A DNA stretch of 64,000 nt, taken from the NCBI RefSeq assembly GCF_002733955.1, contig NZ_NVXQ01000030.1, positions 1 to 64,000 on the forward strand, written 5' to 3'. The notes beneath the pieces are model-generated. The model saw only the letters and a program-made list of their open reading frames with translations, made no database searches and was not told the origin of the DNA. This stretch comes from Hoeflea sp. (lineage in GTDB: Bacteria > Pseudomonadota > Alphaproteobacteria > Rhizobiales > Rhizobiaceae). Shown here piece by piece: positions 11,118 to 63,275 of this stretch. The position numbers and the translations under genes were made by a program. Every line of letters starts with the position of its first letter. Positions within the stretch are counted from its first letter, which is position 1.

Positions 11118-11131
11118 AACTGGAGATCAAG

Positions 11132-12376: not shown

Positions 12377-12399
12377 TGGTCTTTCCAATCAGGTATCAG

Positions 12400-14346: not shown

Positions 14347-14436
14347 TGGCGGAGAGAGAGGGATTCGAACCCTCGAGACGGTTCCCCGCCTACACACTTT
14401 CCAGGCGTGCGCCTTCGACCACTCGGCCACCTCTCC
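14347..14436 (-). tRNA. tRNA-Ser(GGA)
   Basis: This is a 90-nt class II tRNA with encoded CCA. The acceptor stem GGAGAGG pairs with TCTCTCC, the discriminator is G, the anticodon loop contains CTGGAAAG (anticodon GGA), and there is a long variable arm and a canonical GGTTCGAATCC T-arm. The integrase gene lies on its 3' side, so its 3' end is the likely attachment site of the integrated element. Confidence 0.95.
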
Positions 14437-43111: not shown

Positions 43112-43112
43112 C

Positions 43113-43144
43113 CCGGCAACGTCAATCTCCGGCAACGTCAATCT
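43113..43144. repeat. 16-bp tandem duplication
   Basis: CCGGCAACGTCAATCT occurs twice head to tail, with a degenerate third start (CCGGCAGAGGCAAT) following. It fills the gap between the two dehydrogenase genes. Confidence 0.85.
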
Positions 43145-43187
43145 CCGGCAGAGGCAATCGAGGCAGCGGCAAATTGGCAGCAATGAC

Positions 43188-44233: not shown

Positions 44234-45157
44234 GTGGATACGGTTCCCGGACAGGCGAGAACATTGAGGTTCGAAGAGGTGTGCTACGGCAAGCCGGTGC
44301 GCACGCCAGGCGGTCCCTTGCACGAAAGCGCCCTTTATGGCGTCAATTCGGTCACCCCGGGCATCGACAATCCGCTACGCTACATCCCGGCCAATTTCCT
44401 CGGCAACACCAATCTCACCTCGAGCATGATAGATCCGGAATTTGCCGGCCGCGGCGCCCTGATCGTCAAGGCGGTCGACGAGGGGCTGGCCATCATGCGC
44501 ATGCGCTACCGCGCCGAGGCCGGAGAGGGCGAAGGCGGGCGCCAGTTCCTGCTCTCGCGCACGCTGCTGTTGCCGGGCATCCAGTATTGGCACGAAATCC
44601 CGCCGGGGCTGTTTTCCTGGTGCGAGCAGGGATTGTCGGCTGACCCCTTCGTCTTCGATCAGCCCGCTTCGCCGCCTGTGAAGGCGGTTGATCTGCAGTC
44701 GTTTCAGCCGCGGGATGTCAGCTGGTTCGACAATCTCAGCCAGCATCGCCAGATCCAGCTGGGCTCCGCCTTCCAGGCGATCACCAGGCGGGTCGGCTGG
44801 ACCGTGTCGAGCATGGTCGCCGAGGAAGAAAGGCAAAGACCGGCCGCCCTGATTGCAGCCGATCTGGACGTCATCTCCTCCTTGCCAAGAAAGTTTCCGC
44901 TCAGGGATGGCGATGCGGACCAGTTTGTCTTGAACCTGGGTCTTGAGCCTCGGCTGACGCCGGGGGCTGTGAGCTATTTTCCCGGTCACCGCGGCAGCGC
45001 GATAGAGGCTCCCGACCTTCACGCGCTGCGAATTGCGATCATCAGCAGCGAGGAAAATCAGCCCTCCGACCCGCCTGAAAACCAGGTCCGCGGAGCGTCG
45101 GACAGCCTTGACCGCAGGATTGGCAGGGAGCCCATCCCCTTGAAGTGGCTTTCATAA
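44234..45157 (+). CDS. unrecognised protein, first gene of SEDS-PBP locus
   Basis: A 307-aa protein starting with GTG at 44234, five bases after GGGAGG. No signal peptide or membrane segment is visible. The N-terminal part (TLRFEEVCYGKPVRTPGGPL, ALYGVNSVTPGIDNPLRYI) and a central LLSRTLLLPGIQYWHEIPP look like a globular alpha/beta domain. A distant resemblance to the GTPase-associated N-terminal domains of prokaryotic NTPase systems is possible but unproven. A 134-bp AT-rich gap separates it from the ATPase gene. I do not recognise the family. Confidence 0.7.
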   Translation: MDTVPGQARTLRFEEVCYGKPVRTPGGPLHESALYGVNSVTPGIDNPLRYIPANFLGNTNLTSSMIDPEFAGRGALIVKAVDEGLAIMRMRYRAEAGEGEGGRQFLLSRTLLLPGIQYWHEIPPGLFSWCEQGLSADPFVFDQPASPPVKAVDLQSFQPRDVSWFDNLSQHRQIQLGSAFQAITRRVGWTVSSMVAEEERQRPAALIAADLDVISSLPRKFPLRDGDADQFVLNLGLEPRLTPGAVSYFPGHRGSAIEAPDLHALRIAIISSEENQPSDPPENQVRGASDSLDRRIGREPIPLKWLS

Positions 45158-45291
45158 TAATTTCAGCTAATTATATTGCATTTTAATCATTTACTTTACC
45201 GCTATTCAACGCGCCTCCAGCTGTTGCGCTAAGGATTTATAAACTATATCGTTCGGGTTCGTATGGGGTAAGTACTAGCGTTGGGTCTTTA
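45158..45291 (+). promoter_or_regulatory. AT-rich leader, candidate promoter of the ATPase-SEDS operon
   Basis: The 134 bp between the first two genes are strongly AT-rich against GC-rich surroundings (AATTATATTGCATTTTAATC region). A promoter here would drive the six following genes. Exact -35 and -10 elements are not assigned. Confidence 0.4.
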
Positions 45292-48200
45292 ATGTTGGAT
45301 TGGGATCTAAGTAACCCAAAGAAAACGCATCTCCGAATAGAGAATTGTTCCGTGATCTGTGATCTTGGTGAATTCTCTCGCGTAGTTACGTTGTCCAGCT
45401 CAACTCTGGCCGCCGATGAAACGCTTAAGATATCCGTCGCTGGTTACATTGAAGAGGCGCCGTGGTTGAGCGCCACACTCCGCAATTTGGATAGCGGTGA
45501 GTCTATACTTCAATATGAATTGGGAAAATCGAAGAATATCGATCTGGCTCTGGAATGCTCGCGCGAGCCGACCGAGGACGAGATTGAATATGCTTCCCGC
45601 GAGCAGTTTACGCTGTCGATCACGCTGCAAACCAAGCGGGCCGACGGCCAGTCGCAAAACCTCAAGGTCGAGCTCGCCGGACCGCGCCTGCAAACGCTGA
45701 AATGGCAGCCGCCGGTGGTCCAGACCCGGCAGGCGTCGATCCCCGAACTCAGTCGCGTCGAAAAGCAGGAACACACCGATGTCGACCTGTTCACGATCAA
45801 CATCAGGCAACCCGTTACCCGGCTCGAATATGGCGGGGCGCCGACCAACCTGATTGTCTCGGGCCGGTTGAGCAGCCGCGTTGATGGTGAAATCAGGGAA
45901 GTATCGGCCAACTTCATGCAAGGCGCCGCCGCTGTCCGCTCCACCGCGGGGATGGCCTGCGAGCTGCGTGCTGGCGACGAGGTTTCGATCCCCTGCATCG
46001 TCTCCATCAACGAGATCTTCGAAGCTGCCGACAGCGCCGATACCCTGCAGATGCAATTCGACTGGAGCTGCATTTTCAGTGACGAGGCCCAGGCGCCGCT
46101 TACGGGCGCCTATGACTTCGACCTGCAGCTCAGGCAGGGAGAAATCCTGGCTCTGAAATACCGGGACGCCTCAGCGGTCCCCAACATGATCCGCAGTGAA
46201 ACGCCCTTTGCGGAGCGCTTTCCGCTGGAGTTTTCGGTCCCGATTTCCGGAGGCGGGGTTCAGTTCGAGCTTGGCGATACCATCGAGTTCGACGTTGTCT
46301 GCCTGGACGACAGCTGGAATGTCGTGGCCCATGCGCACATCCTGCCCGAGGGCGAGAAGACGACGCTGGCCAGCCGCGAGGATTTCAAGCTGGTGCAGGA
46401 CATCGAGGTCGATCATGTCGGCGGCGGCAAGATCCGGATTCCGTTTCACAACACCACCCTCGACGAGACCGGCGATACCGACCGTTACCAGCTGTTCATC
46501 CGCTTCGAAGCCCGGCGCCTGAAGGTCCGGGCCGGCATGTCGCTGGTGGCCGAGGACGATTTGTTCGAGCACAAATACGGCATGGTGGCGGTCGATATCG
46601 TGCTGCGCCAGCGTGACCCCAAATATCTCATCTGCCTCGATTACGGTGCCTCGGCGATTGCGGCCTGGTTCGGCCGGGTCGAGCGAAACCTGGCGCGGCA
46701 GCTGATCCCCCTGGGCTCTTACGCCTACAGCCTGGCTGGCGCCCATCCGGAATATGACCCGAACAAGAAGCGCTGGCAGAATGTGCTGATCCCGTCGACG
46801 ATCGGGCTCAATCCGGCCAAGCATGTGCGCTCGCGCAAGGCGCCGCTGTCCTATGGCAACCTGTCCTATGTCGGCACCAAGCTGCAGGCTGCGGAAAAGC
46901 GGATGACGCGGTTCGGCCGCACCTATGATGTCTCGATCCCGGTTGACCGGGACTTCGTCACCGACGGGGAAGCGTCCGCCTATCTCGAACTTCAGACGCT
47001 TGTCATCCCCGATCTCAAGCGCATGCTGATGAATTCCGAGCCGGGGTTCAAATACCGCATCAAGCAATCCGTCATCGAGCGCACCGGCAATGGCCTTCAG
47101 TCCACGCGCGAGATCAATCTTGCGGCCCTGACCCGGGACGCCTTTCACGAGCTCGGCTCCTACATGGTCCCCAACGCGCTGTTTTACGCGCATGACCAGC
47201 TCGATGGCCCGATTGTCAGCGAATTCGGCGACGAGCGTTTCGACCAGTGGCTCGAATGTGCCGACAATGATGTCCAGGTGGTTGTGACCCACCCCAGCGG
47301 CATCGCCCATCACAAGCGCGAACTCTACAAGAATGCCGCCAGATCCTTCGCGCAGGGCCTCACCGGAACCCAGGACACCCGCGCGGCGCGCGAGCCCAAA
47401 TTGATCCCGGAAGCGCTTGCGGCGGCCTATTTCGGCATTTCCCGGTCGCAGGGCCGGCGTGGCGAGACCGAGGTTTTCGCCTGCATCGATATCGGTGCCA
47501 GCACCGTCGACGCCAGCCTGATCGAAGTCAAAATGCGGCACGACAGCATCGAAAGCTGGAAGGTGTTTGCCCATTTCGGAGCCACCATCGGCGGCGCCAA
47601 TCTCGATGAAGCCCTGCTTGCCGTTCTGATCCAGAACCTGCGTGAGCTGTTCTCCTCGACCGAACCGGTGTTCGAGGATCTCGAACTCGATCATCGCTTC
47701 CTGCGGGACGAGGCGCTCAAGACCGCGCTGCTGCCGCGCATCCAGGAGGCCAAGCGGGCGCTGTCGGAAACGCTGATGCGCTATGCCGGCGCGGACAACG
47801 AGTATCGCTGGGCTGAAGAGGGAGAGGGCAGCTGCTTCGCCGTCGAGCTCAATGACATTGTTCGCAGCGCCTCGCCCGGGCAGCCCCTGAGCGAACGCGA
47901 CACTCCGATCCCCGGCTCGAATGACAAGGTGCAACTGCGCGTCCAGACCACCTCGTCCGGCGGTCAGTCGGTCTGGATCGAGATTTCGCCGGATTTGCTG
48001 GATGCGACCGCCGAGATCACCAACCCGGTCCGCGGCAACCCGCAGACCGTTGCGCGCACCCTTGGCTATGCCGTGCCGGCAATGCTGATCCGGGAAGCCC
48101 GGCGCCTGAACCTGGGCGATCCGCAATGGGTGGTCACCGGCCGCGCCAGCCTCTGGCCCTCGATCTTCTCCGGCATCGGCCGCACGGCGCAGCTGCTTGG

Positions 48201-48690
48201 TCAGCCGCGTGATGCAGCGCCGATGCGGCCTTTCAGCCCCGATGACATGAAGAATGCAACGGTTTATGGCGCGGCACGGCTGGCGACTTCGGGCCTGGAA
48301 GTCACCGACGGCGCCGACCATTCCTATGCGCTGGTGCTGCACGACGATGGCCGCGGCGTGGTCTCCGAGATCGAGTATCTCGACACCCGTTCGCGCTCGG
48401 AAGGCAACAAGAGCGTCCGCTTCCTGCCCAACCGCTGGCTGAGCCGGGTTCTGCCCGGGCTGGATGATGTCGGCAGTGACAACGACATCACCCGCGACGA
48501 GATCGTGCGCCTGTTCGGCACCTTCGGTCAGAAGGTGGTGGTCGACCAGTCCCAGGTCAAACCCGGCGGGCTGGCCGGAGGCCAGGATCAGCATGTCGAG
48601 ATTTCCTGGAAGCGCAGGAATTCGGATGTCGAGTTCACGGTCGGCGATATCATCGTCCGCCAACCCCGAAGTCGGCTGGCGGGAACCTAG
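45292..48690 (+). CDS. giant actin/Hsp70-fold ATPase
   Basis: A 1132-aa cytosolic protein. Residues 1 to about 435 are beta-rich and of unknown family. From residue 446 the sequence has the ASKHA (actin/Hsp70) signatures: phosphate-1 LICLDYGASAIAAWFG (446-461), phosphate-2 CIDIGASTVDASLIEV (731-746), a GATIGGANLDEALL segment near 768, and an adenosine-type WVVTGRAS near 946. It is much larger than MreB or DnaK. In the operon it precedes a membrane coiled-coil protein, a PBP and a SEDS protein, so a scaffold or regulator for envelope synthesis is inferred. Size and layout recall SrfB-type proteins, but homology was not established. Confidence 0.75.
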   Translation: MLDWDLSNPKKTHLRIENCSVICDLGEFSRVVTLSSSTLAADETLKISVAGYIEEAPWLSATLRNLDSGESILQYELGKSKNIDLALECSREPTEDEIEYASREQFTLSITLQTKRADGQSQNLKVELAGPRLQTLKWQPPVVQTRQASIPELSRVEKQEHTDVDLFTINIRQPVTRLEYGGAPTNLIVSGRLSSRVDGEIREVSANFMQGAAAVRSTAGMACELRAGDEVSIPCIVSINEIFEAADSADTLQMQFDWSCIFSDEAQAPLTGAYDFDLQLRQGEILALKYRDASAVPNMIRSETPFAERFPLEFSVPISGGGVQFELGDTIEFDVVCLDDSWNVVAHAHILPEGEKTTLASREDFKLVQDIEVDHVGGGKIRIPFHNTTLDETGDTDRYQLFIRFEARRLKVRAGMSLVAEDDLFEHKYGMVAVDIVLRQRDPKYLICLDYGASAIAAWFGRVERNLARQLIPLGSYAYSLAGAHPEYDPNKKRWQNVLIPSTIGLNPAKHVRSRKAPLSYGNLSYVGTKLQAAEKRMTRFGRTYDVSIPVDRDFVTDGEASAYLELQTLVIPDLKRMLMNSEPGFKYRIKQSVIERTGNGLQSTREINLAALTRDAFHELGSYMVPNALFYAHDQLDGPIVSEFGDERFDQWLECADNDVQVVVTHPSGIAHHKRELYKNAARSFAQGLTGTQDTRAAREPKLIPEALAAAYFGISRSQGRRGETEVFACIDIGASTVDASLIEVKMRHDSIESWKVFAHFGATIGGANLDEALLAVLIQNLRELFSSTEPVFEDLELDHRFLRDEALKTALLPRIQEAKRALSETLMRYAGADNEYRWAEEGEGSCFAVELNDIVRSASPGQPLSERDTPIPGSNDKVQLRVQTTSSGGQSVWIEISPDLLDATAEITNPVRGNPQTVARTLGYAVPAMLIREARRLNLGDPQWVVTGRASLWPSIFSGIGRTAQLLGQPRDAAPMRPFSPDDMKNATVYGAARLATSGLEVTDGADHSYALVLHDDGRGVVSEIEYLDTRSRSEGNKSVRFLPNRWLSRVLPGLDDVGSDNDITRDEIVRLFGTFGQKVVVDQSQVKPGGLAGGQDQHVEISWKRRNSDVEFTVGDIIVRQPRSRLAGT

Positions 48691-48707
48691 AGGGGCACTG
48701 GGAGGTG

Positions 48708-49517
48708 ATGGGTATCGAGTTCACATCCGCATTTGCACAGATCATCTTCCTGGTGCTGCTTGCCGCCTTTGTGATTGCCGGGGTCTGGCTGTTCCGGCGG
48801 CTTCGCACCAACGAGGCCCAGCTGGCAGCCGTCCGGCGGGAAAACGGCAAGCTGCGCAATGAAATTGCCAACATCACCGGCTGGACCGCCAATGGCCGCC
48901 TGCCTGAAGACTGGCAGGAACGGTTGCGCAATGACAAGGCCGCAGCCGGCGTTGCGCATTCGCCTGCCGGCCCCGATGCGCCCGCGGAGCCGGTGCTCCT
49001 GGCCGCGCACCATGCCCTGGCTTCGGTCGAGCCGCCGCACTTCGCCTCAAGCGACAGCGCGGACGAAGTCAGCCGCGCGCACCGGCGCAACATAGAGCTG
49101 ATCGAGGGACTGGCCGCCGAACGCATCGATCCGGTTCCCGCACTTGCCAATGGCGACATGGACAAGCTGTTGTGCTTCTGGCGGCGGCTGGAGGCCTATT
49201 TTCCCGATCGCGCAGAGACCGACGCCTATGGGCTGGCCGCCTATGCTGTGCTTGATCTGTTCAAGCGCCGGGAGGTTCAGATCATCGCGCCACGGCCCTT
49301 GTCGGTGGAAAGCGTCAAGAACTGTGTCTTCACCACCGATGACAGTGAAAAACTCAGGGACATTTCCCGCATCCGCACAGCGGCTTTCGCGGCGAGTTCC
49401 CGCTTTGCCAATCCTAAGGTGGGAGAGGAGCTGGTGATCGATTGTGAACGCCCGGGATGGAACGGGCCGAACGGGCGCAAGAGCCCCAGAATTCTGATTC
49501 TGGATCGGTCATGGTAG
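48708..49517 (+). CDS. membrane-anchored coiled-coil protein
   Basis: A 269-aa protein (ATG at 48708; a GTG one codon earlier is possible). One transmembrane helix at about residues 8-28 is followed by RRLR, so the bulk should be cytosolic. A short coiled coil (NEAQLAAVRRENGKLRNEI) follows, then a linker and a globular C-terminal domain from about residue 125 (LLCFWRRLEAYFPDRAETDA). No family is recognised. It could anchor the ATPase to the membrane. It starts 18 bp after the ATPase stop. Confidence 0.75.
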   Translation: MGIEFTSAFAQIIFLVLLAAFVIAGVWLFRRLRTNEAQLAAVRRENGKLRNEIANITGWTANGRLPEDWQERLRNDKAAAGVAHSPAGPDAPAEPVLLAAHHALASVEPPHFASSDSADEVSRAHRRNIELIEGLAAERIDPVPALANGDMDKLLCFWRRLEAYFPDRAETDAYGLAAYAVLDLFKRREVQIIAPRPLSVESVKNCVFTTDDSEKLRDISRIRTAAFAASSRFANPKVGEELVIDCERPGWNGPNGRKSPRILILDRSW

Positions 49518-49532
49518 GGCGCGGATACATTC

Positions 49533-51044
49533 ATGACACTTGGTAATCCAGTTCGCTTCAGCGATGAGTCCGACCGCCCGGTCATCATGATTCCGGTCAA
49601 GCTGGATTTGCGGGACAACCAGGCGTTCTGGCGCCGCAATGTCTTCGGTATCCCCAAGCGTGGATTGCTGGGCTGGCTGTTCAACAAGGGCTCCAAGGCG
49701 GCGCGGGAATATCCTTGGGTGGTCGGCGGCAATCCAGATCCGGGCAAGAGGACGCGGCTGTTCCAGGTCGCGCGCGGCTCGGTGGATGAAGTCCTTTACA
49801 ATATCACCGACAAGCTGGTGATCGGCACCGCCAATGGCAGCGAGGTGGTCGAGGTGGCGTTTCAACACCTGACCTTTGTCTCGGGCCCCAGCGGGGTCTG
49901 CGATACCGCCTCCGACATGGGGCTTGAGGAGCGAATCTCGGAAAGCCTGGCGTCGACCCTGAAAGGCTATTTCGATCCGACGATCGGGGTCCGGGTCGAC
50001 TGCATGGTCAACCCGTCGCTGCCGGCCAACCAGCTCAACATGTATCTCGGCCAGGGCGTCTTCGTGCCACGGCGCGGCGAGCGGCCGATCGGCTGGATCC
50101 GCTATTACCCCGATCCGGCAAAGCGCGAGGAGTACAATCAGCCGCAACTGCTCGATGGCCGGCCGGCGGGCCTGTACAAGGGGCAGGGTGGCCTGGTGAT
50201 CGGCATCGGCGAAGGCCTGTTGCACGCCCAGATCGACCTCGGCTCCGACGAGGATGTGCAGTCCCCCTTCATGTTCATCAACAAGGAAGCGGTGTTGACG
50301 CCGGTCAATGAAGAACCGCGCGGCGGCGGCGTCGACGCCAGTCTTTCGTTCTGCCGCAGTCACGGCAACGAGCCTGTGCCCACACAAGTTGCGCGCACCG
50401 ACGAGGCCTGCGACGTCGCCTGGAAGATCGATTTTGTCGGCACCGCCCAGATTCCCGGCAGGCTCGAGATCTGTGTCGATTCGCGCAAGTCGCGGCTGCA
50501 CTGGAAACCCACCACCGGCTGCAACGCCGCGATCAGCTCGCTGCTGTTCGATTTGCGCGATTTCTCCCATCGCGACGTGGACCGTGTCTGGATCGATCTC
50601 GACCGGGACAACATCCTGACCGCCTACGCGCTGCAGGTCGCACGTGTCTCGTTGGTCTGGGACTGCGAGAATGAAGAGCAATATGTCTATGAATGGGGCC
50701 AGACCAGTGCCCCGTTCAAGACCCCGGGTAGCGTCGGGCTGAAATGCCGGATGATCGAAAACAACATGATCGAGGTCGGGCGCGCCGATGGCGAGCCGTT
50801 CGGCTATCTCGAATTGCCGGAAATTCCGGAGAAGGTGATCTTCTCGGACACGTTCCAGTCCTTCAGCGGCTACCATCTCGACTGGCTCGATCAGTGCGGC
50901 CGTATTTCCTTTGGCGACACCGTGCTGTCGCTGGGTGAGGCCTATGCCGAGAAATGCTCCGGCATGCCGATCGCCAGGTTTGAACCCGGCGAGCCGCGAA
51001 AAGTCGTCGGACCCCTTGTGCTCACCCCTTATGAGGGAGGCTGA
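49533..51044 (+). CDS. unrecognised beta-rich protein of SEDS-PBP operon
   Basis: A 503-aa protein with no signal peptide or membrane helix. Many short hydrophobic strands separated by turns (GLVIGIGEGLLHAQIDLGSD, GRLEICVDSRKSRLHW, VGLKCRMIENNMIEVGRADG) suggest beta-sandwich domains. The N-terminal PVIMIPVKLDLRDNQAFW and GLLGWLFNKGSKAA are distinctive but not recognised. It lies 15 bp after the anchored coiled-coil gene and 5 bp before the PBP gene, so it is certainly cotranscribed. It probably acts in the cytosolic part of the complex. Confidence 0.7.
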   Translation: MTLGNPVRFSDESDRPVIMIPVKLDLRDNQAFWRRNVFGIPKRGLLGWLFNKGSKAAREYPWVVGGNPDPGKRTRLFQVARGSVDEVLYNITDKLVIGTANGSEVVEVAFQHLTFVSGPSGVCDTASDMGLEERISESLASTLKGYFDPTIGVRVDCMVNPSLPANQLNMYLGQGVFVPRRGERPIGWIRYYPDPAKREEYNQPQLLDGRPAGLYKGQGGLVIGIGEGLLHAQIDLGSDEDVQSPFMFINKEAVLTPVNEEPRGGGVDASLSFCRSHGNEPVPTQVARTDEACDVAWKIDFVGTAQIPGRLEICVDSRKSRLHWKPTTGCNAAISSLLFDLRDFSHRDVDRVWIDLDRDNILTAYALQVARVSLVWDCENEEQYVYEWGQTSAPFKTPGSVGLKCRMIENNMIEVGRADGEPFGYLELPEIPEKVIFSDTFQSFSGYHLDWLDQCGRISFGDTVLSLGEAYAEKCSGMPIARFEPGEPRKVVGPLVLTPYEGG

Positions 51045-51049
51045 GAGCC

Positions 51050-53887: not shown

Positions 53888-56800
53888 AGCTGGTCCGCTC
53901 CATCAGTTCGGTCCTGGGCATCGTCATGCGGCTGGTCTTCTGGCTTGCCACGATGGCCGTGATCTTCTGGTGGATGTTTGCGCTTCAGACGGCGGCCGAA
54001 CAGGCGCCGCAGTTCAGCGCGCTCAAGGATTTGAAGCTGACAATCCCCCGCGGTGAAGAGGTCGTGCTCGGACGGGCGGAATTGCTGCAGCCTGCAGGCG
54101 CGCGCTCGGCGGAGCTGCAGCATGTGCGCCTGCGCGCAAGCGACGACGGGCAATTGCTGATCAGCCGGGTGGCCGAGCTGCGCGGTCTCAATGTCGAATT
54201 CGGCGGCAAGACCGAGGAGGGCTCCAGCGAGCGTTACGAGATCTCCCGCCAGCAAGGCGCCTACACGCTGGTCTCGGCCGGTTCGCAATTCGTAAAGATC
54301 GCCGTCAAAGATGACGACGGCATCGAGTTCGTGGTCGAAGACTGGAGCGGCAAGGCATCGACCGCAGTTGTCTACCGCAATGGCGCGGAAATCCGTGTCG
54401 ATGGGGAGCCGGTCAAGGGCTGTTACGAGCAGAGCACGGTCAGCTGGGTGGTGTCGCAGGCCAACAAGCTGAGCCAGGAGATCACCGGCCGGGTGTCAGA
54501 CCTGCTCGAGCCTGTTGGCTTGAGTGATCTGTTGCGCAGGAAAGGCCGGGCAACGATTGCGGTCCTGGGAGGCGATGTTGATTGCACCATGCACAGCTAC
54601 GCCCTGATCGCCATGCCCCGCGCCAACCCGGAACTCGAATTCATTGTCCGCAAGAACCTTTCCGATGACCGCCTGTTTGTCTCGATCTATCGCGAGGCCC
54701 AGCTGGTTCCGGTCAGTTTCGAGACCTGGGTCAACGGCAAGCGGACCCGCCAGAATTTCGGCCGCACCGGCATCGAGATTCCGGTGGCGTCGATTGGCGA
54801 ACTGGAAAATCCGCCGGTCACGCATTTTACCGCCGGCAAGACCCGCTACGCGATCGAGACGACGCCGGCTCCGGATGGCGGATGGGAGGTGCACATTGCA
54901 CCCAACCGCCGGGTCGCCCTGTTTGACGAGAGCGTCTGTGCAAGGGCGACCGATGAGGTTGAAGAAACGGTCTCGGCCGAAGATTGCCCGCCGCCGCTGG
55001 ACAGCTCGCCCAACGTGCTGCCAAGGGGGGCAAGCATCGAGGTTTCGCAAGTTAAGCTTCCCTCGACCCTCGACCGGCTGTTTGTCAGCTCGCCGGAAGG
55101 TCTGGTGAGCGCGGAAATTCTCGCCCGCGGCGCAGCCATCAGCCTTTGCCTTCTGATCGTGCTGGCGGTTCCCGGCGCCACCATCTGGCGTGCCCATGGC
55201 TCCATCGTCCGGGCCGCGTTTCTCGTTGTGGCGGGCGGTTTTGTCTTGCTGCTTGCGCTTTTGCCGGATCTGGTTGCAATCGCCCGGATGGTCACCGATG
55301 TTCCGGACGCCTCGCGCTGGCTGTTTTACGGATTGGGCGCCACCTGGGTCTGCGCCACCTTTGTCGTCACGCTGGACCGTTCCGGCGGCGCCAGCCTGTC
55401 GGCCTTCTGGCTGGTCCTTACCGGCATCATCGCCATTGGCTCGATCTCGATGTTCACCATGAGCGCGGAAGGCCCCAACACCGACTGGGAGCGGTTTTTC
55501 ATCAAGCACAAGCTTGTCGTGCTCGACATCCTGCCGCTGTTCGTGATGGCCCTGACGATTGTCTCGCCGACGGCGCTGAAGCTCAGGATCGGCAATGATT
55601 TTGCCGGACGTCCTTCCTTCTTCTCGCCGACGATGTGGCTGCTGGCCATCGTTTTCGCCCTGTTCGCGGCCTGGTTCTTCCTCGGAAACCAGACCGGTCT
55701 TGGCGGCTCGATCCAGCCGGTCGAGGCGGGCAAGTTTGCCATCGTCGTGCTTCTGGGCGCGGCCCTGGCGCAATGGCTGATCCGCGCCCGACTGTTGGCC
55801 CAGGCCTGGTTCGGCATCACTCTGATTGCCGTCATCCTGTCGACGCTGTTCCTGATCGCGCTGCTGTTCGTCCCGGCTGTCAAATCCGACTACTCGCCGC
55901 TGATCATCATCGGTTCGGCCACCGCGATCACCGCCGTCGTCGGCGTCATGGCGATCGGCTGGCGGATCCGCGAAGAGGAATATGACGACTTAAGGGACAT
56001 CAGGCGGATCCCGCTGTCCTACGTTCCGGCGATCCAGGACTACCGGATGAGTTACGCGCAGTTCGCCCTGCTGCTGCTGGTGTTTGCAGCCATCATCCTG
56101 GCGCCGCTGCTGGCGCTCGACCGTGCCCGCGAAGTCATGGATGTGGTGATGGCGTCACCGGAATATCTGGTTGCGGCGGCTCTGGCGCTGGTACTGGTCG
56201 CAGCCATGTTGATCAGGACGCTTGCCATCCCGCGGGCGGTGTTCATTCTCATGCTGGGGCTGCCGCTGGCGCTGATGGGCACCTGGGCGGTGATGCGCGG
56301 CGAGGTGCTGATCCTGGCGCTCGCCGTGGCTTGCCTGCTCGTCATCACTTTCGCCGTCGCCATTCGCAACCGGGTCAACTGGACGCTGGCGCGGGTGGCG
56401 ATCGCCGCGCCGCTGGTCGCGCTGGTGATGGCGGTGGCATTGCGGGACGTGCCGGCCAAGGCCGGGCTCGGGGTCGAGGACTGGTCCTGGTTCGATGGTC
56501 CTGACAAGCAGATCACCGAGCTGGAGAAGGTGCTGGGCGAGGGGCGGCGGTTGCCGGTCGAACGCTTGATGAGCTGGGCTGATCTGCGCTTCGGCCGCAC
56601 CGGTGGCTACGAGGAGCCGCGGCAGCTGCTGCTGCGCGACATGAACTTTCACGTGCTCAGATCACGCGCCACGCTGGCAAATGCGCCCTGCGGCATGAGT
56701 GCGGAACTGACGGCGGCGCCTTACAATATCGGCCATGCGGTCGGCTGGCTCGGCGACACGATTTCGCAAGGTCTCGGGATATCCTGCCCGGAAGAGGCGC

Positions 56801-57279
56801 AGACCGCCGAAACCCTGCGCTGCACGCCATCGACGCTCAAGGGGCCGGTCCGGCCCCATTGTGTCCCGGTCGTCCAGAGCGATTTTGCCGCCACCTACAT
56901 TGTCACCCGGCACGGCAATGCCGCGGCTATTTTGCTGATCACGCTGCAGGCCTGCTTCATCTTTCTCGTCATCAATCTCTATCTGAAGCTTCAGGCCAAA
57001 CGGTCGCGTGATCCGGTCGAGACGGGCGCCGATCAGGCGCTGGCCTGCATTGCGCTGGGTGCCGGCATGCTATTCCTGATGCAATGGATCCTGGCCTGGT
57101 CGAATGCCTTCGGGCTGTTGCCGGTCATGGGCCAGCCGATGACATGGTTGTCGGCAGGAACGAGTCATCACCTTTTCATGGCAATACCGGCAGCGCTGGT
57201 GCTCCTCGTGGCGGTTCGCCTTGCAGGGATGAAAGCACCCGTGTTAACAATTCGTATACCACCAAGACGCCGGGGTTAG
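53884..57279 (+). CDS. giant SEDS-family (RodA/FtsW-like) polymerase homologue
   Basis: A 1131-aa polytopic protein. One N-terminal helix (about 10-35) is followed by a periplasmic region to about residue 415, then some 16-17 helices. SEDS hallmarks: IQPVEAGKFAIVVLLGAALA (610-629; QPxExxK pattern), a loop ending QSDFAATYIVTRHGN with Asp1000 at the place of the catalytic Asp, and LLPVMGQPMTWLSAGTSHHLF near the C-terminus (LPvtGxPLPfxSxGgSs pattern). Typical SEDS proteins have about 400 residues and 10 helices. It overlaps the PBP gene by ATGA, matching the SEDS-bPBP pairing. Glycan polymerisation is inferred. Confidence 0.82.
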   Translation: MKLVRSISSVLGIVMRLVFWLATMAVIFWWMFALQTAAEQAPQFSALKDLKLTIPRGEEVVLGRAELLQPAGARSAELQHVRLRASDDGQLLISRVAELRGLNVEFGGKTEEGSSERYEISRQQGAYTLVSAGSQFVKIAVKDDDGIEFVVEDWSGKASTAVVYRNGAEIRVDGEPVKGCYEQSTVSWVVSQANKLSQEITGRVSDLLEPVGLSDLLRRKGRATIAVLGGDVDCTMHSYALIAMPRANPELEFIVRKNLSDDRLFVSIYREAQLVPVSFETWVNGKRTRQNFGRTGIEIPVASIGELENPPVTHFTAGKTRYAIETTPAPDGGWEVHIAPNRRVALFDESVCARATDEVEETVSAEDCPPPLDSSPNVLPRGASIEVSQVKLPSTLDRLFVSSPEGLVSAEILARGAAISLCLLIVLAVPGATIWRAHGSIVRAAFLVVAGGFVLLLALLPDLVAIARMVTDVPDASRWLFYGLGATWVCATFVVTLDRSGGASLSAFWLVLTGIIAIGSISMFTMSAEGPNTDWERFFIKHKLVVLDILPLFVMALTIVSPTALKLRIGNDFAGRPSFFSPTMWLLAIVFALFAAWFFLGNQTGLGGSIQPVEAGKFAIVVLLGAALAQWLIRARLLAQAWFGITLIAVILSTLFLIALLFVPAVKSDYSPLIIIGSATAITAVVGVMAIGWRIREEEYDDLRDIRRIPLSYVPAIQDYRMSYAQFALLLLVFAAIILAPLLALDRAREVMDVVMASPEYLVAAALALVLVAAMLIRTLAIPRAVFILMLGLPLALMGTWAVMRGEVLILALAVACLLVITFAVAIRNRVNWTLARVAIAAPLVALVMAVALRDVPAKAGLGVEDWSWFDGPDKQITELEKVLGEGRRLPVERLMSWADLRFGRTGGYEEPRQLLLRDMNFHVLRSRATLANAPCGMSAELTAAPYNIGHAVGWLGDTISQGLGISCPEEAQTAETLRCTPSTLKGPVRPHCVPVVQSDFAATYIVTRHGNAAAILLITLQACFIFLVINLYLKLQAKRSRDPVETGADQALACIALGAGMLFLMQWILAWSNAFGLLPVMGQPMTWLSAGTSHHLFMAIPAALVLLVAVRLAGMKAPVLTIRIPPRRRG

Positions 57280-57317
57280 TCAGCAGTAAAGTTTGAGTAA
57301 AGGGAGCAGGCGTTGAA

Positions 57318-59546
57318 ATGGACAAGAACAACAATGACGGGAACGCGGTCCTCAGCACGACCCGCCTGAAACAGGGTTTCATCATCGTCTTTGCTGCAGT
57401 TGCATTCTTCATGACTGCATATGCGACAAGCGGCGGCGCGCGCATCTTCATGACCGAGACCTATGCCTGGGTCGGGATCACAGCGCTGGCCGTCGGCTTT
57501 CTGGCCTTTACGTCGCTGGTTCTTGGCGATGGCATATCGTCCAACCGGATCACGCAGATTGCCCTGGTGACGCCGTTCTACCTGGTCGCGGTGGCGATCT
57601 GCTGGATCTCGTCATTTGCTTCCTACCATCAGCAGTTCCTGAGCGTCGGCGGCTCCGATCTGGCCAATGCCGAAACCAATTTGCGGCAGATGGGGCTCTA
57701 TGCGCATGACATCGGCAAGGACATGAATGACCGCTATCTCGATCAGAGAGCTGACTTGCTCGGCGACGAGGCGCTGAAGGATTATTCGGCCCGGATGGGC
57801 GCCCTTACCGACGAATTGCGCGATCGCGACAAGAAACGCGAAATCGCCTCCGAACTGCAGACACTGATCGAGACCAGAAAGGCCCAGTTGCGCAACCGGC
57901 AGGGCCAGCTCACCACTCAGCAGGGCGAAATCGAGCGCGGGCTGGTCAAGGTGGGTACCCAGATCGAAGACCTTGAAACCCTGGTTGCCGCCAAGCAGAC
58001 CCAGACCGCAACCGCGGCCGAGATGGTCGAAAAGCTTGAAGCCGCGCTGAAGGCCGAGGAAGGCGAGGCGGGCGTCTCGCCTGACAGCAAGGCCATCCTG
58101 CTGGCCGATGGGCTGGCCAGCCAGCTTACCAGTGACCCTGCCTGCAACCGCAGACGCCGCGCCGGCACCGGCGGCGGACTGAAAGGCACCTGTTACAACG
58201 CGCTGGGGGAACTGCTCGCAGAAACCCGCGCAGAGCTTGCCAGCGTCCGCAAGGACTACGAGGCAAGCCGCAACCAGTTGCTGGCGGCAAACCAGCGGCA
58301 GGCTTCGCTGCAGGCAGATCTGGTCAACGCTGCCGCCGAGCTTGAAACCACCAAGACCCAGCTCACAGAGGATGTTGCTTCAGGCTACACGCTCGACGCC
58401 GATGGGTTCCTGCAAAGCGTCAACGCCTTCATCGACACGCCGTCGCAGACCAGTTTCAAGCAGACCGCGAGCTATTGCGAGGTGGTCACGGAAGTCTTGT
58501 CGGATCTCAAGTCGGTATCCGACCTTCCCGCCTGCGAACCGCAGGCCCTGATGGCGGTGTTCCGGAAGATCGACACGCTCGATACCGAACAGGCCGCTTT
58601 CGCGCAGGTTTGTGACGAGACCGACCGGCGCAAGCAGATCATCGACAATCTGCGCGGCGAAATGCTGGACGTGAATGGCCCCGAGCGGTTGAAGCCGATC
58701 ACCAGAGCCTATGACCAGATGCGCACCGAAGTGCTCGAAACCTGTCTCGTGGCAGCCGAGCAACGCGGTCTCGAAGGCGGTCCCTACCGCGAGGAGCTTG
58801 CAGGTCTTTACGACCGGATCAACCCGTCGCAAGACGCCATCAGCAAGGCCATCGGCAAGGTCGAGGCGCTGTTTAACGGAAGTGCCTCGGCGCGCGACTA
58901 TTTCCCGGCCTTGCTGGCGCTCTTGCAGGAACTCTCGTTGCTGCTGTCCAAGCTGTTCTGGGATGCCAATGTCGTCTCCAAGTCGACCCGGCGCAAAGAA
59001 GATCTCGACATCGCCGATCTCGATCTCGATGCAAAGCCGAATGATCCGGATTCGGTTCTGGCGGCCAAGAATGTGATCCTCAGCACGGTGTTCGACAAGC
59101 AGGGCTACCTGTTGCCGCATCTCTATGACGAGGATTACTCGCACGAAATGCGCAGCCAGATGCGGCTTATCGTCGACAGTCTTTTCCGCAAGCAGCTGGC
59201 CCGCAAGACCGGTCGCGGCATCCTGATCTCGGAACAGGGCCTGGCCGAAGTCGGCCGCCGTATCAGCCGTCACAATGACGCCGCTGAAAACCGGAGCGCC
59301 GGCCCCGAGACTGTTGCCCCGGACGCTGCAGATGAGGCTGAAAACCCGGGCTTCGAAGCGCAGCCGGAGGCTCCGGCGCCGGGGAACTTCGCCGAGGCCA
59401 AGCCCGCAGCAAAGCTTGCCGCCGCGCAGCCAGGTCTCGCCGCCTCAAGTGCGGAAGTTCTCGATGAAGTGGACGCCAACGCTGCCCAGCGCCCGCGCCG
59501 CCGCAGGCCGGTGGTGGTCAGGCCGAATTTCCGGCGTGAAATCTGA
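57318..59546 (+). CDS. three-TM coiled-coil protein of SEDS-PBP operon
   Basis: A 742-aa protein. Three helices near residues 19-38, 48-69 and 80-100 are followed by long heptad-rich coiled coils (about 130-240 and 290-350), a helical middle with several cysteines, a LLALLQELSLLLSKLFWD helix near 535, and a Pro/Ala/Glu-rich disordered end finishing RRRRPVVVRPNFRREI. No family is recognised. A structural or scaffolding role in the envelope complex is inferred. A terminator follows, so it closes the operon. Confidence 0.75.
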   Translation: MDKNNNDGNAVLSTTRLKQGFIIVFAAVAFFMTAYATSGGARIFMTETYAWVGITALAVGFLAFTSLVLGDGISSNRITQIALVTPFYLVAVAICWISSFASYHQQFLSVGGSDLANAETNLRQMGLYAHDIGKDMNDRYLDQRADLLGDEALKDYSARMGALTDELRDRDKKREIASELQTLIETRKAQLRNRQGQLTTQQGEIERGLVKVGTQIEDLETLVAAKQTQTATAAEMVEKLEAALKAEEGEAGVSPDSKAILLADGLASQLTSDPACNRRRRAGTGGGLKGTCYNALGELLAETRAELASVRKDYEASRNQLLAANQRQASLQADLVNAAAELETTKTQLTEDVASGYTLDADGFLQSVNAFIDTPSQTSFKQTASYCEVVTEVLSDLKSVSDLPACEPQALMAVFRKIDTLDTEQAAFAQVCDETDRRKQIIDNLRGEMLDVNGPERLKPITRAYDQMRTEVLETCLVAAEQRGLEGGPYREELAGLYDRINPSQDAISKAIGKVEALFNGSASARDYFPALLALLQELSLLLSKLFWDANVVSKSTRRKEDLDIADLDLDAKPNDPDSVLAAKNVILSTVFDKQGYLLPHLYDEDYSHEMRSQMRLIVDSLFRKQLARKTGRGILISEQGLAEVGRRISRHNDAAENRSAGPETVAPDAADEAENPGFEAQPEAPAPGNFAEAKPAAKLAAAQPGLAASSAEVLDEVDANAAQRPRRRRPVVVRPNFRREI

Positions 59547-59575
59547 CGCATGTATCTTGTCGTGAGGCAACGAAA

Positions 59576-59610
59576 CGCTGCGCAATCGGGTCGGATGCGC
59601 GGCGTTTTTG
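59576..59610 (+). terminator. terminator of the SEDS-PBP operon
   Basis: CGCTGCGCA and TGCGCGGCG pair (one G-T pair), followed by TTTTT, 30 nt after the last stop. It lies between convergent genes. Confidence 0.8.
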
Positions 59611-59614
59611 TTAT

Positions 59615-60646
59615 CTAGGCTGAAGTCTCGTCTGCCGTCTCCGCGGGCTCCGGGGCAACCGCGGTTGCAGGCTGGAAGGCGATACCGGCCGGATTCCGGT
59701 CCTTCAGAATCCCGCTGAGGATTTCATCGCGCGTGAACAGGAACGGACTGTCCAGTCCCAGCGCCGCAAAGATGAACGGATCGGCCGTCATGTAGGGATA
59801 GCGGACATTGTCCGGCGTCAACGGCACGGGAAAGCGTGAATTGCCGGGATCGAGAATTTCGGCATTGGCATCGATATTTGCGCAGCCCAGTTGCGGATGA
59901 AAACCGTAGCTGGAGGTGGCGATGAACCTCAGATCGATGTCGCGCTGCTGTGACGGGAACGGGCGGAAATCCTTGATGATGTCGAAGGCCGGCCGCATGT
60001 GGGCGTGCAAAATGGCAAGCACGGCCTCAGGCTCTGTGGCGATGTCGCGTGAGCGATTGCCAAACCGCAACAACAGCAGATCAAACATGCTGACCGCGAT
60101 CACGACGCGTTCCAGGTTTTCAAATTCCGGCTTTCCGGCGCGCTCGAAAAAATCCTCGACCTTGTCGATCAACGCCTCGAAGCCTTCGTCGGTGCCGGCA
60201 TTGAGCGCCGATATCACCAGGACGATGCCTTTGGCCTTGGAAAACCACTCATCCAGTTCCTTTGCCTTTTCGGCGTGCGGATTGGTTTTTCCGGGCACAT
60301 CCTCGCTTGGGAAGGCGGCCTCGCCCGGGGCATCACGAACATGAATGTTGAATTGCCGTTTCTGCAAGCCGTCAGCAGACGCAAGCCCGGTCTCGGCAGG
60401 CAGATCAAGCTCAAGGTCAAACCGGATATCGGTTACGCTCTCCGTGGCTTCCGGCAGGTTGCGATAGTATGTCCTAAGTAGTTTTCGGTTTACCCGGTCG
60501 GTTTCGATCTTGATATTGTGGAGTTGTTGGAAGCCGTGGAAGTTCAATTCAACGCATTTTGCGAAGTCGACAAACAAGTTTGTCTTGCCTGATCTCACCG
60601 GTCCCGTGAGACCGACGTGAATTTCGTTGTTATCATTAACAGCCAA
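59615..60646 (-). CDS. P-loop GTPase-like protein
   Basis: A 343-aa protein starting with TTG at 60646 (AAGGGA upstream). Walker A is GPVRSGKT at residues 15-22. The G3-like motif is D105-A-P-G-E109, and where GTPases have NKxD it has S186-M-F-D189, a degenerate G4. Nucleotide preference is therefore uncertain. The DxPGE form occurs in GTPases of SrfC-type and GTPase-associated conflict systems. The C-terminus from about 305 is disordered. It is convergent with the SEDS operon and divergent from the gene at 60726, suggesting a switch subunit with separate control. Confidence 0.8.
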   Translation of the reverse strand: MAVNDNNEIHVGLTGPVRSGKTNLFVDFAKCVELNFHGFQQLHNIKIETDRVNRKLLRTYYRNLPEATESVTDIRFDLELDLPAETGLASADGLQKRQFNIHVRDAPGEAAFPSEDVPGKTNPHAEKAKELDEWFSKAKGIVLVISALNAGTDEGFEALIDKVEDFFERAGKPEFENLERVVIAVSMFDLLLLRFGNRSRDIATEPEAVLAILHAHMRPAFDIIKDFRPFPSQQRDIDLRFIATSSYGFHPQLGCANIDANAEILDPGNSRFPVPLTPDNVRYPYMTADPFIFAALGLDSPFLFTRDEILSGILKDRNPAGIAFQPATAVAPEPAETADETSA

Positions 60647-60725
60647 TTCAGCGTTCCCTTTTGCTGAATTTCATTATAAGTCTTTAAAACCAATAAACCA
60701 TTTGAATAGTACAGGAAAGAGTTCA
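60647..60725. promoter_or_regulatory. divergent promoter region
   Basis: A 79-bp AT-rich gap separates the starts of the GTPase gene and the 849-aa protein gene. Both promoters must lie here or overlap the 5' ends. Confidence 0.5.
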
Positions 60726-63275
60726 ATGGGGTTTCGGGGCGGAGATTGCGAGAATGTCTGGCTGGCCTGGGATGGCGAAGATCAGGCCGTGCTGGGGTAT
60801 TTTGCGTCCAAGGGGGAGGAACTGGTCAAGCACCGCAAGGGTGCGATCGTCTTGTGCCACCTCAAGCCGCACGCGTTTCGCGAAGGCAACCGCTCCGGCA
60901 TAGTCGTCGACATCTTCTCGATTTCGCCCGGTGAAAATTTTCTCAGAACACTCCGGCTGCCGCGCGGAACCCATTCCGTCGAGTTGCTGATCGATGACGC
61001 TCAGACGGCAAAGCCGCTCAAGGCGTTCGAGCTGGTGGGAGAGACCGAAGGGCCTGTGCCCCATGCGCGCTATGGCAACGTCGTCATCGCCCTTCCCGAG
61101 GAGCAAGGCGACGATCCCGACGCCCGCTTTGTCTGGTCCGACAAGCGCATCCATCACGTCAAGAAGCCGCACGCCCATATCGGTTGGGCGGGCTATTTCA
61201 CCTCCTGGCCGGTGCATGAGGACGACGACACCAGCAATGTGGTTGCCGTCACCAGTTTCAGGCTCGAAGTGCCGCATCTTGAAGATGCGCTGCAGATCTT
61301 TCCTGTCGGCTACGACATCACCGAAGCCGAGCTGGTGCCCCGGGATGACACTGCCACTGCAATCACCCGTGCTTCTGTTGAAAACGACCGGGTCCAGAAT
61401 GCGGTTCTGACCATTGAAGGCAGCCGGCCGCTGCTGCACGGGCTCTATTTCCTGCATGTCTCGGCACACAGGCAACGGGCCAATGAGTGGAGCGATATCA
61501 TCGATATCGATCCGGGCACGTTCCAGTCCATCAGCGACAATCTGGTCGACGCCTACCGTCAGCTGCTCTCAAGCTCTGGCGACTGGGATGACGCGGAAGT
61601 TGGCGATGCAGGACAGAACCTGATCGAAATCCTGACCCAGGAGCACCGCTGGTTCGAGCTGTCGCAGCCCGATTATTTCGTCGATGTGTTTCCCAATGAA
61701 AGCGGCGAGAAGGTCAAGCTTTCGGTCTACGAGATTTCCGCCGGAGACCATCTGGTCTTCTACGACACCATGGGGCGCAAGCTCCGGGCCGGTCAGCATC
61801 TGAGTTCCGACAGCATCATCGCGTTCAAGGCCAACACCACCGGCCTGCAGCTGCTGCGCGGGGTCTATACGACCAGCCACAAGAAGATTGCCGAAATCGA
61901 TGCGCACAGGCCGGCCAAGCGGTCGTCATTGTCTGAGCCGAATGATTTTGAATCCCTGCCTGCCGCACTGAGCATCAAGCATGATCAGGTGGCAGCACCC
62001 TATTCGCCGTTCGAGTTCACACCCTTGAAGGTTCATTCGGCCATCTTCTATGGCATGGGCTCTCATGACGGGTCCTTTGCCTGGGAGGCCTTTATTCGCG
62101 ATCCGGCGCCCTGGTTGCTGGCCGACGCCATCAATCCGGATTTTTGGGCCAGCGAGACGGAATTCAGGCCTGCGCGTGACGGCAATATCCTGTTCAGGGC
62201 TCTCAGCCTCCTGGGGCGCGACGAGGCCTTCGTGGCGCTGCCGCAGCTCGAAGACCAGATTGTCGCCGCCTTCCTGATCACGCGCCTGGCCAGAACGCCG
62301 GTGCTCAAGACCTGCATCTACCGCATCAACGGGCTGAGCCCTGCGGGCGATGACCTGAATGCGTTGGCGGAGCTGGTCAACCGCATTGATCAGCGCCTCG
62401 CCGATGAAGAGTTCAGGGAATGGCTGTCCTTCAGTCAGCCCGAGATGTTCGATGCGCTGTGTGAGCCCAACGGGAGCTCAAGGCCGATTGACAGAAGCGA
62501 TCTGAAGAAGCTGTCGGAAGAATTGCAGATCGCCGGGGAAATTTTCGATGCCTTCCACGGCGCCCTCGGCGAATCCGTCAAGCGGCCTGCAGCCAACGTC
62601 TCTGAAACCGGCCGCTGGCAGCCGCAGGGCGCAAGCGAGGAGGTTCTGGAAAATCTGATTGCAACCCTGACCGAATCCGATCTCGCCAGAGACAAGGTCG
62701 CGGGCCAGCACTATGAATCGCTGCTCGCCCAGTTTGGCCGCAATGCCTATTACCGAAGCAGGATCGCAGCCGATATCTACAAGCACTATCCGGATCTGCT
62801 GCCCAATGATTCAAAGAAGCTGATGGAGTTCCTGCGCGGCCTGCTGACCGAATCCGGATGCAATTTCGACATGCGCAATTTTGATGAAAAGCTGGTCGGA
62901 AGCGTGGCCGAGAACATGCAGAATGTCGAAAACTGGCTGCTGCCCAATGCGGTCAACATGCGCAAGATGGCCCAGGTCGAGCTCGACAATGCCTCGATGA
63001 ACACGCCGACGGACGAAAAGAAGAAAGCCGCCATCATCGAGTTCGCCGCCGCCCATGAAATGCAGAAAACCTGGGATGACATTTCCGACATCATCGTGCG
63101 CGCCGAAGATGCCGGCATCAGGGTGCCGACAAAGCTGCGCCGCCTGCAGCTGCTCTGGCCGCGCGAGAGTTCGACGACGCTGAGCGAATTCCTGACCTTC
63201 GAGCACAAGCACAAGCACATTCTTGGTCAGAGGTTGAGCGAAACCTACGGATATGATTCCATTCTTTACGCCTGA
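60726..63275 (+). CDS. unrecognised large protein linked to GTPase
   Basis: An 849-aa protein. The ATG at 60726 follows AGGAAAGAG; the frame is open to 60627, but that would overlap the GTPase start. There is no signal peptide or membrane helix. The N-terminal half is beta-rich (GIVVDIFSISPGENFLRTLRL is one stretch; shorter, VVDIFSISPGENFL) and the C-terminal 450 residues are largely helical. It ends LSEFLTFEHKHKHILGQRL. It may be an effector or adaptor of the GTPase. I do not recognise the family. Confidence 0.75.
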   Translation: MGFRGGDCENVWLAWDGEDQAVLGYFASKGEELVKHRKGAIVLCHLKPHAFREGNRSGIVVDIFSISPGENFLRTLRLPRGTHSVELLIDDAQTAKPLKAFELVGETEGPVPHARYGNVVIALPEEQGDDPDARFVWSDKRIHHVKKPHAHIGWAGYFTSWPVHEDDDTSNVVAVTSFRLEVPHLEDALQIFPVGYDITEAELVPRDDTATAITRASVENDRVQNAVLTIEGSRPLLHGLYFLHVSAHRQRANEWSDIIDIDPGTFQSISDNLVDAYRQLLSSSGDWDDAEVGDAGQNLIEILTQEHRWFELSQPDYFVDVFPNESGEKVKLSVYEISAGDHLVFYDTMGRKLRAGQHLSSDSIIAFKANTTGLQLLRGVYTTSHKKIAEIDAHRPAKRSSLSEPNDFESLPAALSIKHDQVAAPYSPFEFTPLKVHSAIFYGMGSHDGSFAWEAFIRDPAPWLLADAINPDFWASETEFRPARDGNILFRALSLLGRDEAFVALPQLEDQIVAAFLITRLARTPVLKTCIYRINGLSPAGDDLNALAELVNRIDQRLADEEFREWLSFSQPEMFDALCEPNGSSRPIDRSDLKKLSEELQIAGEIFDAFHGALGESVKRPAANVSETGRWQPQGASEEVLENLIATLTESDLARDKVAGQHYESLLAQFGRNAYYRSRIAADIYKHYPDLLPNDSKKLMEFLRGLLTESGCNFDMRNFDEKLVGSVAENMQNVENWLLPNAVNMRKMAQVELDNASMNTPTDEKKKAAIIEFAAAHEMQKTWDDISDIIVRAEDAGIRVPTKLRRLQLLWPRESSTTLSEFLTFEHKHKHILGQRLSETYGYDSILYA

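Follow-up and report, generated by a model that had tools for sequence, protein, structure and literature searches.

Can a bacterium build peptidoglycan with a synthase pair that serves neither division nor elongation, and control it without an actin-like protein? This question is raised by a locus in a 64,000-nucleotide stretch of Hoeflea sp. DNA (hereafter the window, within which all gene coordinates are given), where seven plus-strand genes, g0 and A to F, are followed by a minus-strand gene, G, and a further plus-strand gene, H. In Proteobacteria, two pairs of a SEDS polymerase and a penicillin-binding protein (PBP) are usually considered, one for division and one for elongation. The nine genes studied here form a rare, conserved set that appears to encode a third kind of wall-synthase pair. 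An Hsp70-like ATPase and a GTPase are encoded alongside it and may switch the pair on, which suggests a way of controlling wall growth that does not depend on the usual actin-like protein. The reading we favour, and hold to be reasonably probable, is that the locus is an accessory peptidoglycan synthase gated by nucleoside triphosphates (NTPs), used conditionally and separate from the division and elongation pairs.

The candidate synthase pair

The pair consists of D and E, which the initial annotation had taken for a penicillin-binding transpeptidase and a SEDS homologue, and profile searches place both products in these families. D passes Pfam Transpeptidase (PF00905) with 58.8 bits against a cut-off of 22.1, and a profile built from six D homologues reaches solved PBPs, down to E 6.5e-11. 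The SxxK, SxN and KTG motifs are all present, and the residues listed for them in Table 1 are invariant across 6/6 D proteins. E passes Pfam FTSW_RODA_SPOVE narrowly (27.7 bits against a cut-off of 26.4, over residues 992-1110 only); aligned by hhalign with 12 FtsW/RodA proteins, it reaches a probability of 99.1 over 141 columns, against 0.1 for a reversed-sequence control. In all 14 E proteins the Asp of a DF motif is aligned with the DF of FtsW/RodA, a position that we take to be the catalytic Asp of the large periplasmic loop in SEDS proteins, and a QPxExxK motif is likewise kept in 14/14. The protein starts with an N-terminal helix and a two-part β-domain (residues ~43-390), which would be periplasmic, and continues with many membrane helices, giving 17 hydrophobic segments overall.

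Both proteins lie outside the known pairs. E proteins form one clade of 14 (support 100/100) outside 8 FtsW and 4 RodA from the same genomes, and D proteins one clade of 16 (100/100) outside 6 FtsI and 3 PBP2; both trees hold alphaproteobacterial references only, so closer SEDS relatives may exist elsewhere, for example among SpoVE types, and in the D tree the sequence from locus L046 retains 30% of columns after trimming. E does not reach the NCBIfam equivalog cut-offs for rodA (28.3 of 336.7 bits) or ftsW (22.1 of 337.5), and these scores, together with the separate clade, rule it out as a RodA or FtsW orthologue. D is rejected as an orthologue of PBP2 (MrdA) or FtsI in the same way, with 52.9 bits for MrdA against a cut-off of 455 and its own fully supported clade. 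The chemistry of the pair, polymerisation and cross-linking, is well supported by sequence: from the conserved catalytic residues we infer that E would have glycosyltransferase activity on lipid II, polymerising it through the SEDS core, and that D would cross-link the product.

The N-terminal part of E shows a further feature. Across 13 relatives, the segment corresponding to residues 38-175 (window 53995-54408) holds an invariant G and H at FHA-like spacing. The β-domain gives weak FHA-like matches, one to chain 3po8 (E 1.0), presumably the FHA domain of FhaA, and one to an FHA chain (E 0.5, probability 0.69); Pfam FHA has no match at E ≤1 in 13/13 of these segments.

The Hsp70-type ATPase, the GTPase-like protein and their neighbours

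The initial annotation described A as a giant ASKHA ATPase of actin/Hsp70 fold. The nucleotide-binding domain of the actin/Hsp70 superfamily holds up, whereas an actin-like character does not, since the fold matches are to Hsp70 and Hsp110: among the best 50 of 302 matches at E ≤0.001, 49 are of this kind and the remaining one is an arginine deiminase, with no actin-type protein. The same matches speak against an elongasome-like machine in the sense of an actin filament, as had also been suggested. A stays below threshold for Pfam HSP70 (E 0.03; 13 bits against a cut-off of 20.6), its family profile matches DnaK at E 2.3e-4, and profile, fold and alignment together identify the phosphate-1, phosphate-2 and adenosine motifs of the Hsp70/ASKHA nucleotide-binding fold. 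Equivalents of the Asp, Glu, Asp, Thr and Asp of the Hsp70 phosphate loops, which we take to be its catalytic residues, are kept in 8/8 A proteins. An MreB profile search of the window genome does not have the A region among its matches, and we reject an MreB- or actin-like identity on the family profile and the fold search, both pointing to Hsp70. We predict A to be an NTP-hydrolysing ATPase that resembles Hsp70 and not actin or MreB. Pfam finds no DnaJ or GrpE among the nine proteins, and no substrate-binding domain was recognised in A, although no search was aimed specifically at one.

G, annotated as a GTPase with a Walker A motif, is indeed a P-loop GTPase-like protein with GLTGPVRSGKT present. 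This motif and DxPGE, which places a Glu in the Walker B region, are kept in 6/6 G proteins. The best match of the G profile has E 0.0045, and the best matches are P-loop NTPases of other kinds. Two G relatives reach Pfam DO-GTPase2 at E 0.012 and 0.12 (best 15.7 bits against a cut-off of 27), and neither G nor its relatives give a DO-GTPase match above cut-off or a GAP1 match. A comparison through PF19993 loci was set aside: 1/123 genomes had a match above cut-off, in a setting that, from its gene list only, bore no recognisable relation to ours.

These features bear on an alternative in which a GTPase/Hsp70 sensor sets off emergency or altered wall synthesis after phage, toxin or predator attack. 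In the portions of Kaur et al. 2020 (PMC7159879) drawn on here, a Walker B Glu is a feature of DO-GTPases, and among the GTPase-centric systems (DO-GTPase/GAP1) the GAP1-N2 ones come with Hsp70 and protein-kinase themes; its main text does not mention FtsW. Our locus is like these systems in setting G, with its Walker B Glu, next to large uncharacterised partners and in its Hsp70 theme, and unlike them in lacking the GAP1 and above-cut-off DO-GTPase matches. A damage- or attack-response role is thinkable because of such GTPase-Hsp70 and GTPase-kinase neighbourhoods (portions of PMC7159879) and because of the genes found near some relatives, namely a kinase and a CHAT protein within 8 kb in genome G353, a caspase-FGE protein near the pair in locus L044, and a kinase adjoining the locus in G672; in the Massilia locus L046, D alone clusters with an FGE-kinase, and the distribution of the system is patchy. 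Against this, the neighbours vary between loci, the best PADLOC match among the nine proteins has E 0.0069, neither A nor D was found on plasmids and D not on phages in the collections searched, and in Hoeflea the genes flanking the locus on the aroE side are metabolic. Because the neighbours are not conserved and the profiles of conflict systems are not reached, we keep this response as a rival and consider it unlikely.

The remaining proteins agree with their first description as two membrane coiled-coil proteins (B and F) and three unrecognised ones (g0, C and H). The likely coiled coils of B and F are deduced from weak matches to coiled-coil families, without a dedicated predictor, and the relative in G353 suggests that F may have a fourth membrane segment near residues 530-549. 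Together with G, the three unrecognised proteins have no family match in Pfam or NCBIfam (E ≤1) or in PADLOC (E ≤0.1), at the limits given. The C profile finds no solved relative at E ≤1, and the profiles of H and g0 find nothing better than E 0.25.

The open reading frames themselves lie as annotated: seven tightly spaced plus-strand genes, a GTPase gene and a divergent large gene (Table 1). From g0 to F the successive gaps are 134, 17, 15, 5, -4 and 38 bases. A GTG at 48705 is a possible alternative start for B, and H more likely starts nearer 60726 than 60627, judging from where its relatives begin. The region holds 3 promoter-like sites (shuffle mean 4.3) and 19 terminator-like sites (shuffle mean 17.4), and because such sites are about as frequent in shuffled sequence, they do not define operon borders.

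Table 1. Genes of the locus (window positions) and motifs of their products (residue positions)
Feature	Position	Strand	Description
g0	44234..45157	+	307 aa; membrane segment not found; no family match; kept in 6 loci
A	45292..48690	+	1132 aa; β-rich N-terminal region of ~440 aa, then Hsp70-type nucleotide-binding domain
B	48708..49517	+	269 aa; single N-terminal membrane helix, then likely coiled coil
C	49533..51044	+	503 aa; membrane segment not found; no family match; member of the widest core, C-D-E
D	51050..53887	+	945 aa; class B PBP-type transpeptidase; single membrane anchor
E	53884..57279	+	1131 aa; SEDS protein
F	57318..59546	+	742 aa; three N-terminal membrane segments, then likely long coiled coil
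G	59615..60646	-	343 aa; P-loop GTPase-like protein; Walker A GLTGPVRSGKT and DxPGE
H	60726..63275	+	849 aa; membrane segment not found; no family match; head to head with G
A, nucleotide-binding motifs	near 448-456, 706-714, 731-742, 948-956		
D, SxxK	S556/K559		
D, SxN	S678/N680		
D, KTG	K874-G876		
E, DF motif	Asp1000		catalytic-type Asp
E, QPVEAGK	611-617		
E, LLPVMGQPMTWLSAGTSHH	1078-1096		

Conservation, distribution and the Rod complex

A conserved, dedicated gene set had been proposed, and comparison of gene neighbourhoods, with presence or absence scored by blast on all open reading frames of each locus, bears this out. All nine genes occur together in 6 loci from four lineages: the window, Hoeflea halophila (L041), Hoeflea sp. 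L042, G084 of the same family, G353 of the same order (where F was detected through its family profile, at 3.2e-31) and G739 of the same class, which is not listed under the same order. Their recurrence in six loci argues against a chance assembly. Between the window and H. halophila the nine proteins share 83-96% identity, and against Hoeflea sp. L042 the ratio of nonsynonymous to synonymous substitution rates (dN/dS) is 0.069-0.142 in 9/9 genes, which are under purifying selection.

The internal order of the set raises the possibility that two unrelated units, an A-F operon and a G/H module with or without g0, merely neighbour each other. The G-H-g0 block shifts in place and orientation, with three arrangements among the six full loci; g0 stands directly behind G in three of them and precedes A in the three Hoeflea-type loci. 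In addition, the Hyphomicrobiales genomes G397 and G459 retain A, C, D and E, and g0, G and H were not found in the 36-37 kb around their loci (the protein upstream of A there was rejected as an H relative, with an hhalign probability of 0.2). G and H are nevertheless adjacent, head to head, and beside A-F in 6/6 full loci across four lineages, and we regard two independent units as very unlikely.

Beyond these genomes the set thins to a core. G147 retains C, D and E up to the contig end, and the D-E pair is present in G672, G496, G813 and two metagenome-assembled genomes (MAGs), a Thiotrichaceae MAG (L043) and a Contendobacter MAG (L044). C was detected by profile in G672 (1.1e-7, extended profile), G813 (4.3e-4) and L044 (2.2e-4) and not in G496 or L043, which makes C-D-E the widest core, reaching the Gammaproteobacteria. 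D and E are adjacent in 13/14 E-bearing loci; in the exception, L044, they lie ~740 bases apart with a minus-strand frame between them and C after E. Membrane proteins also adjoin E in G147 (with a weak DUF4407 match) and in G813, and the F profile does not match the one in G147. Near the pair in L044, a caspase (C14) is fused to an FGE domain (L044:6052-7563).

D relatives also occur without E, in eight loci of Massilia and kin (L045, L046, L048, L049, L051, L053, L064 and L072), in a recurring cluster of a giant D-related PBP with a kinase family and several unrecognised proteins; the kinase is an FGE-kinase by Pfam, run on L046 only. Profile searches of the DNA examined around these loci find no E relative besides a 127-aa frame in L053 (E 7e-4), taken as chance.

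The system is rare. In samples that overlap and each include the window's own genome, D is found in 2/101 genomes of the family (with a same-genus genome, G046, negative), 5/397 of the order, all matching beyond E 1e-28, and 5/385 of the class at E ≤1e-30. In the order sample 22/397 genomes match D at E ≤1e-3; the other 17 matches are short, no better than E 9.8e-8 and mostly at the KTG end. A is found in 3/398 genomes of the phylum and 4/397 of the order, and all four of the latter are D-positive; the fifth D locus breaks off at a contig end. A D search of the named-species collection gave at least 59 loci, of which 19 were searched by blast and 14 by profiles; most match the transpeptidase part only, as ordinary PBPs would. 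In both trees G739, from another order, falls inside the Hoeflea-G084-G353 group and the Hyphomicrobiales pair G397/G459 outside it, a pattern that would agree with lateral transfer or with an ancient presence followed by extensive loss.

In the window the locus has a GC content of 0.57-0.65, which resembles that of most flanking sequence beyond 14 kb. An origin as plasmid, phage or island was rejected given this resemblance and the lack of matches in the plasmid collection (A or D, limits E 1e-5 and 1e-20) and the phage collection (D). Positions 1-14000 have a GC content of 0.50-0.56 against 0.57-0.66 in most of the rest, end near a tRNA-Ser (14347-14436) and are a possible genomic island. 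A fused AP_endonuc_2/HPPD-type protein (36220-38166) and a shikimate-dehydrogenase-like gene (43065-44021) presumably belong to a quinate/shikimate catabolic set beside the locus; a ManC-like nucleotidyl transferase fused to a GlcNAc 2-epimerase lies at 32460-34709. In the G353 locus (L031), a protein-kinase-like protein (592-1839) and a caspase-like CHAT protein (2096-4876) lie within 8 kb upstream of the nine genes, and a frame upstream of A (7110-7910), by eye IS3-type transposase-like, suggests mobility.

We examined 12 genomes holding the D-E pair for MreB, MreC, RodA, PBP2 and FtsW. G739, G672, G496 and G813 each have FtsW together with RodA, MreC, an above-cut-off PBP2 and an MreB that matches at E 1.5e-89 or better; the full Rod set thus coexists with all nine genes in G739 and with D-E in the other three. 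The remaining eight have no MreC, no PBP2 above cut-off and one full-length FtsW-type SEDS; their MreB matches are weak (best E 5.3e-17) and lie in frames whose DnaK- or FtsA-like length points to these two proteins. Completeness is only 84% for G147, which is among these eight. The window genome belongs here too: in keeping with the remark in the initial annotation that many Hyphomicrobiales lack MreB, RodA and PBP2, it has no MreB-grade, RodA or over-cut-off PBP2 match, nor an MreC match. Apart from the locus it has a full-length FtsW of its own and a further transpeptidase, which we take to be FtsI.

For these eight genomes the locus could be read as an elongasome that substitutes for the Rod complex in MreB-less Hyphomicrobiales and is guided by A in an actin-like role. 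They lack MreB-grade, MreC, RodA and over-cut-off PBP2 matches. In seven of them E is the sole SEDS protein that Pfam detects beside the FtsW-type one, and in G353 Pfam detects no SEDS protein other than FtsW. The four genomes with full Rod sets argue against this, as do the Hsp70-like nature of A and the absence of D from the same-genus genome and from 392/397 genomes of an order whose Rod complex is reported missing (Rhizobiales, in sections of PMC8546619). The same sections name PBP1a as the main polar-growth synthase in Agrobacterium. We consider a substitute elongasome quite improbable, and the earlier idea of a machine that simply makes up for a missing Rod complex does not agree with 4/12 genomes keeping the full set or with the scarcity of D in family and order. 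Given the coexistence in four genomes, the system is an addition and not simply a replacement.

A proposed conditional synthase and its place among known systems

Several observations weigh against the accessory synthase. In E, the C-terminal signature SYGGS, canonical for SEDS proteins, is altered in 14/14 proteins (commonly to SAGTSHH; G813 comes closest with SFGGSHH), and of the EE pair that follows the DF motif nothing is left except one Glu in G739, so that the activity of E could differ. Pfam detects only the C-terminal end of E, with FTSW_RODA matches (E ≤1) in 7/9 members; the AlphaFold model is weak, with a predicted local distance difference test (pLDDT) score of 59.5, and its fold search has no match at E ≤0.001, with FtsW first at rank 20. 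A does not conserve the lysine that corresponds to residue 71 of Hsp70, and its fold matches combine low TM-scores (mostly 0.15-0.20 when taken by query and 0.27-0.47 by target) with large root-mean-square deviations. The model of A is also weak, with an overall pLDDT of 55.6 and block means between 66 and 86 for residues 701-1000. Finally, blast searches of the outer D-E loci detect none of A, B, F, G, H and g0, and profile searches there give no match for A, G, H or g0, so that D-E can in general do without them.

The first of these points would also suit a reading in which E and D are derived forms that serve regulation or sensing (lipid II sensing or transport, for instance) and make no peptidoglycan. 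To the altered signature can be added the long extra β-domain of E and a full-length profile that finds no solved relative at E ≤0.1. The catalytic motifs are kept over deep divergence, however, and with low dN/dS, and we give this reading very little weight.

In the accessory synthase as we picture it, the products would form a complex around E and D. C most likely couples the cytosolic side of the pair to the switch, and F, through a periplasmic coiled coil, would form a scaffold across the membrane with B. A would act not as an actin filament but through an ATP-driven conformational change; a second, GTP-driven input would come from G, which is paired with H and has g0 behind it in three loci. 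That A and G gate the synthase is the simplest proposal, because these NTPases are encoded with it and A is found with D in 4/4 order genomes. The two NTPases may license the synthase under some condition, be it envelope damage or attack, or a developmental stage. Of the forms first suggested for this locus, a conditional wall-synthesis machine is the one we prefer as a possible role.

The locus has partial counterparts among known systems. Like the Rod complex (RodA-PBP2 with MreB/MreC/MreD/RodZ), it encodes a SEDS protein and a class B PBP with an actin/Hsp70-superfamily ATPase and membrane coiled-coil proteins; it differs in that E does not fall into the RodA clade nor D into that of PBP2, in its Hsp70-like ATPase of over 1100 aa and in the added GTPase-like protein. 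MreC, besides, has no match in the window genome, and locus and Rod complex can be present side by side. FtsW and FtsI, also a SEDS-PBP pair, act with the GTPase FtsZ and the ASKHA protein FtsA; here FtsW and a presumed FtsI are already present separately, and G carries a Walker A P-loop, a motif not known from FtsZ. The actinobacterial pknB-pbpA-rodA-pstP-fha locus encodes signalling proteins with a SEDS-PBP pair, and some of our outer relatives likewise lie near kinases, but none of the nine proteins matches a kinase or a phosphatase, and an FHA domain is not established in any of them. The Caulobacter stalk synthesis complex, as portrayed in parts of PMC6373972, resembles the locus in devoting wall synthesis to a special purpose alongside general growth and differs in using ordinary MreB, RodA and PBP2, with no third pair. 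A literature search, covering titles and abstract starts of part of the matching papers and leaving subscription journals largely outside its scope, found no description of the nine-gene set.

A broader form of the accessory reading, which we put forward tentatively and think may well prove wrong, is that D and E represent a third class of SEDS-class B PBP pairs, in which an Hsp70-fold ATPase and a GTPase replace MreB or FtsA/FtsZ as the switch. C-D-E would then be the fixed part, to which lineage-specific sensor modules are attached: Hsp70 plus GTPase here, and kinase- or caspase-containing neighbourhoods elsewhere. Presence in bacteria both without and with the Rod complex implies a role separable from ordinary growth, and a deeply separate third pair with Hsp70-type ATPase and GTPase-like partners would offer a system for testing how wall synthesis may be controlled by NTPases that do not form filaments.

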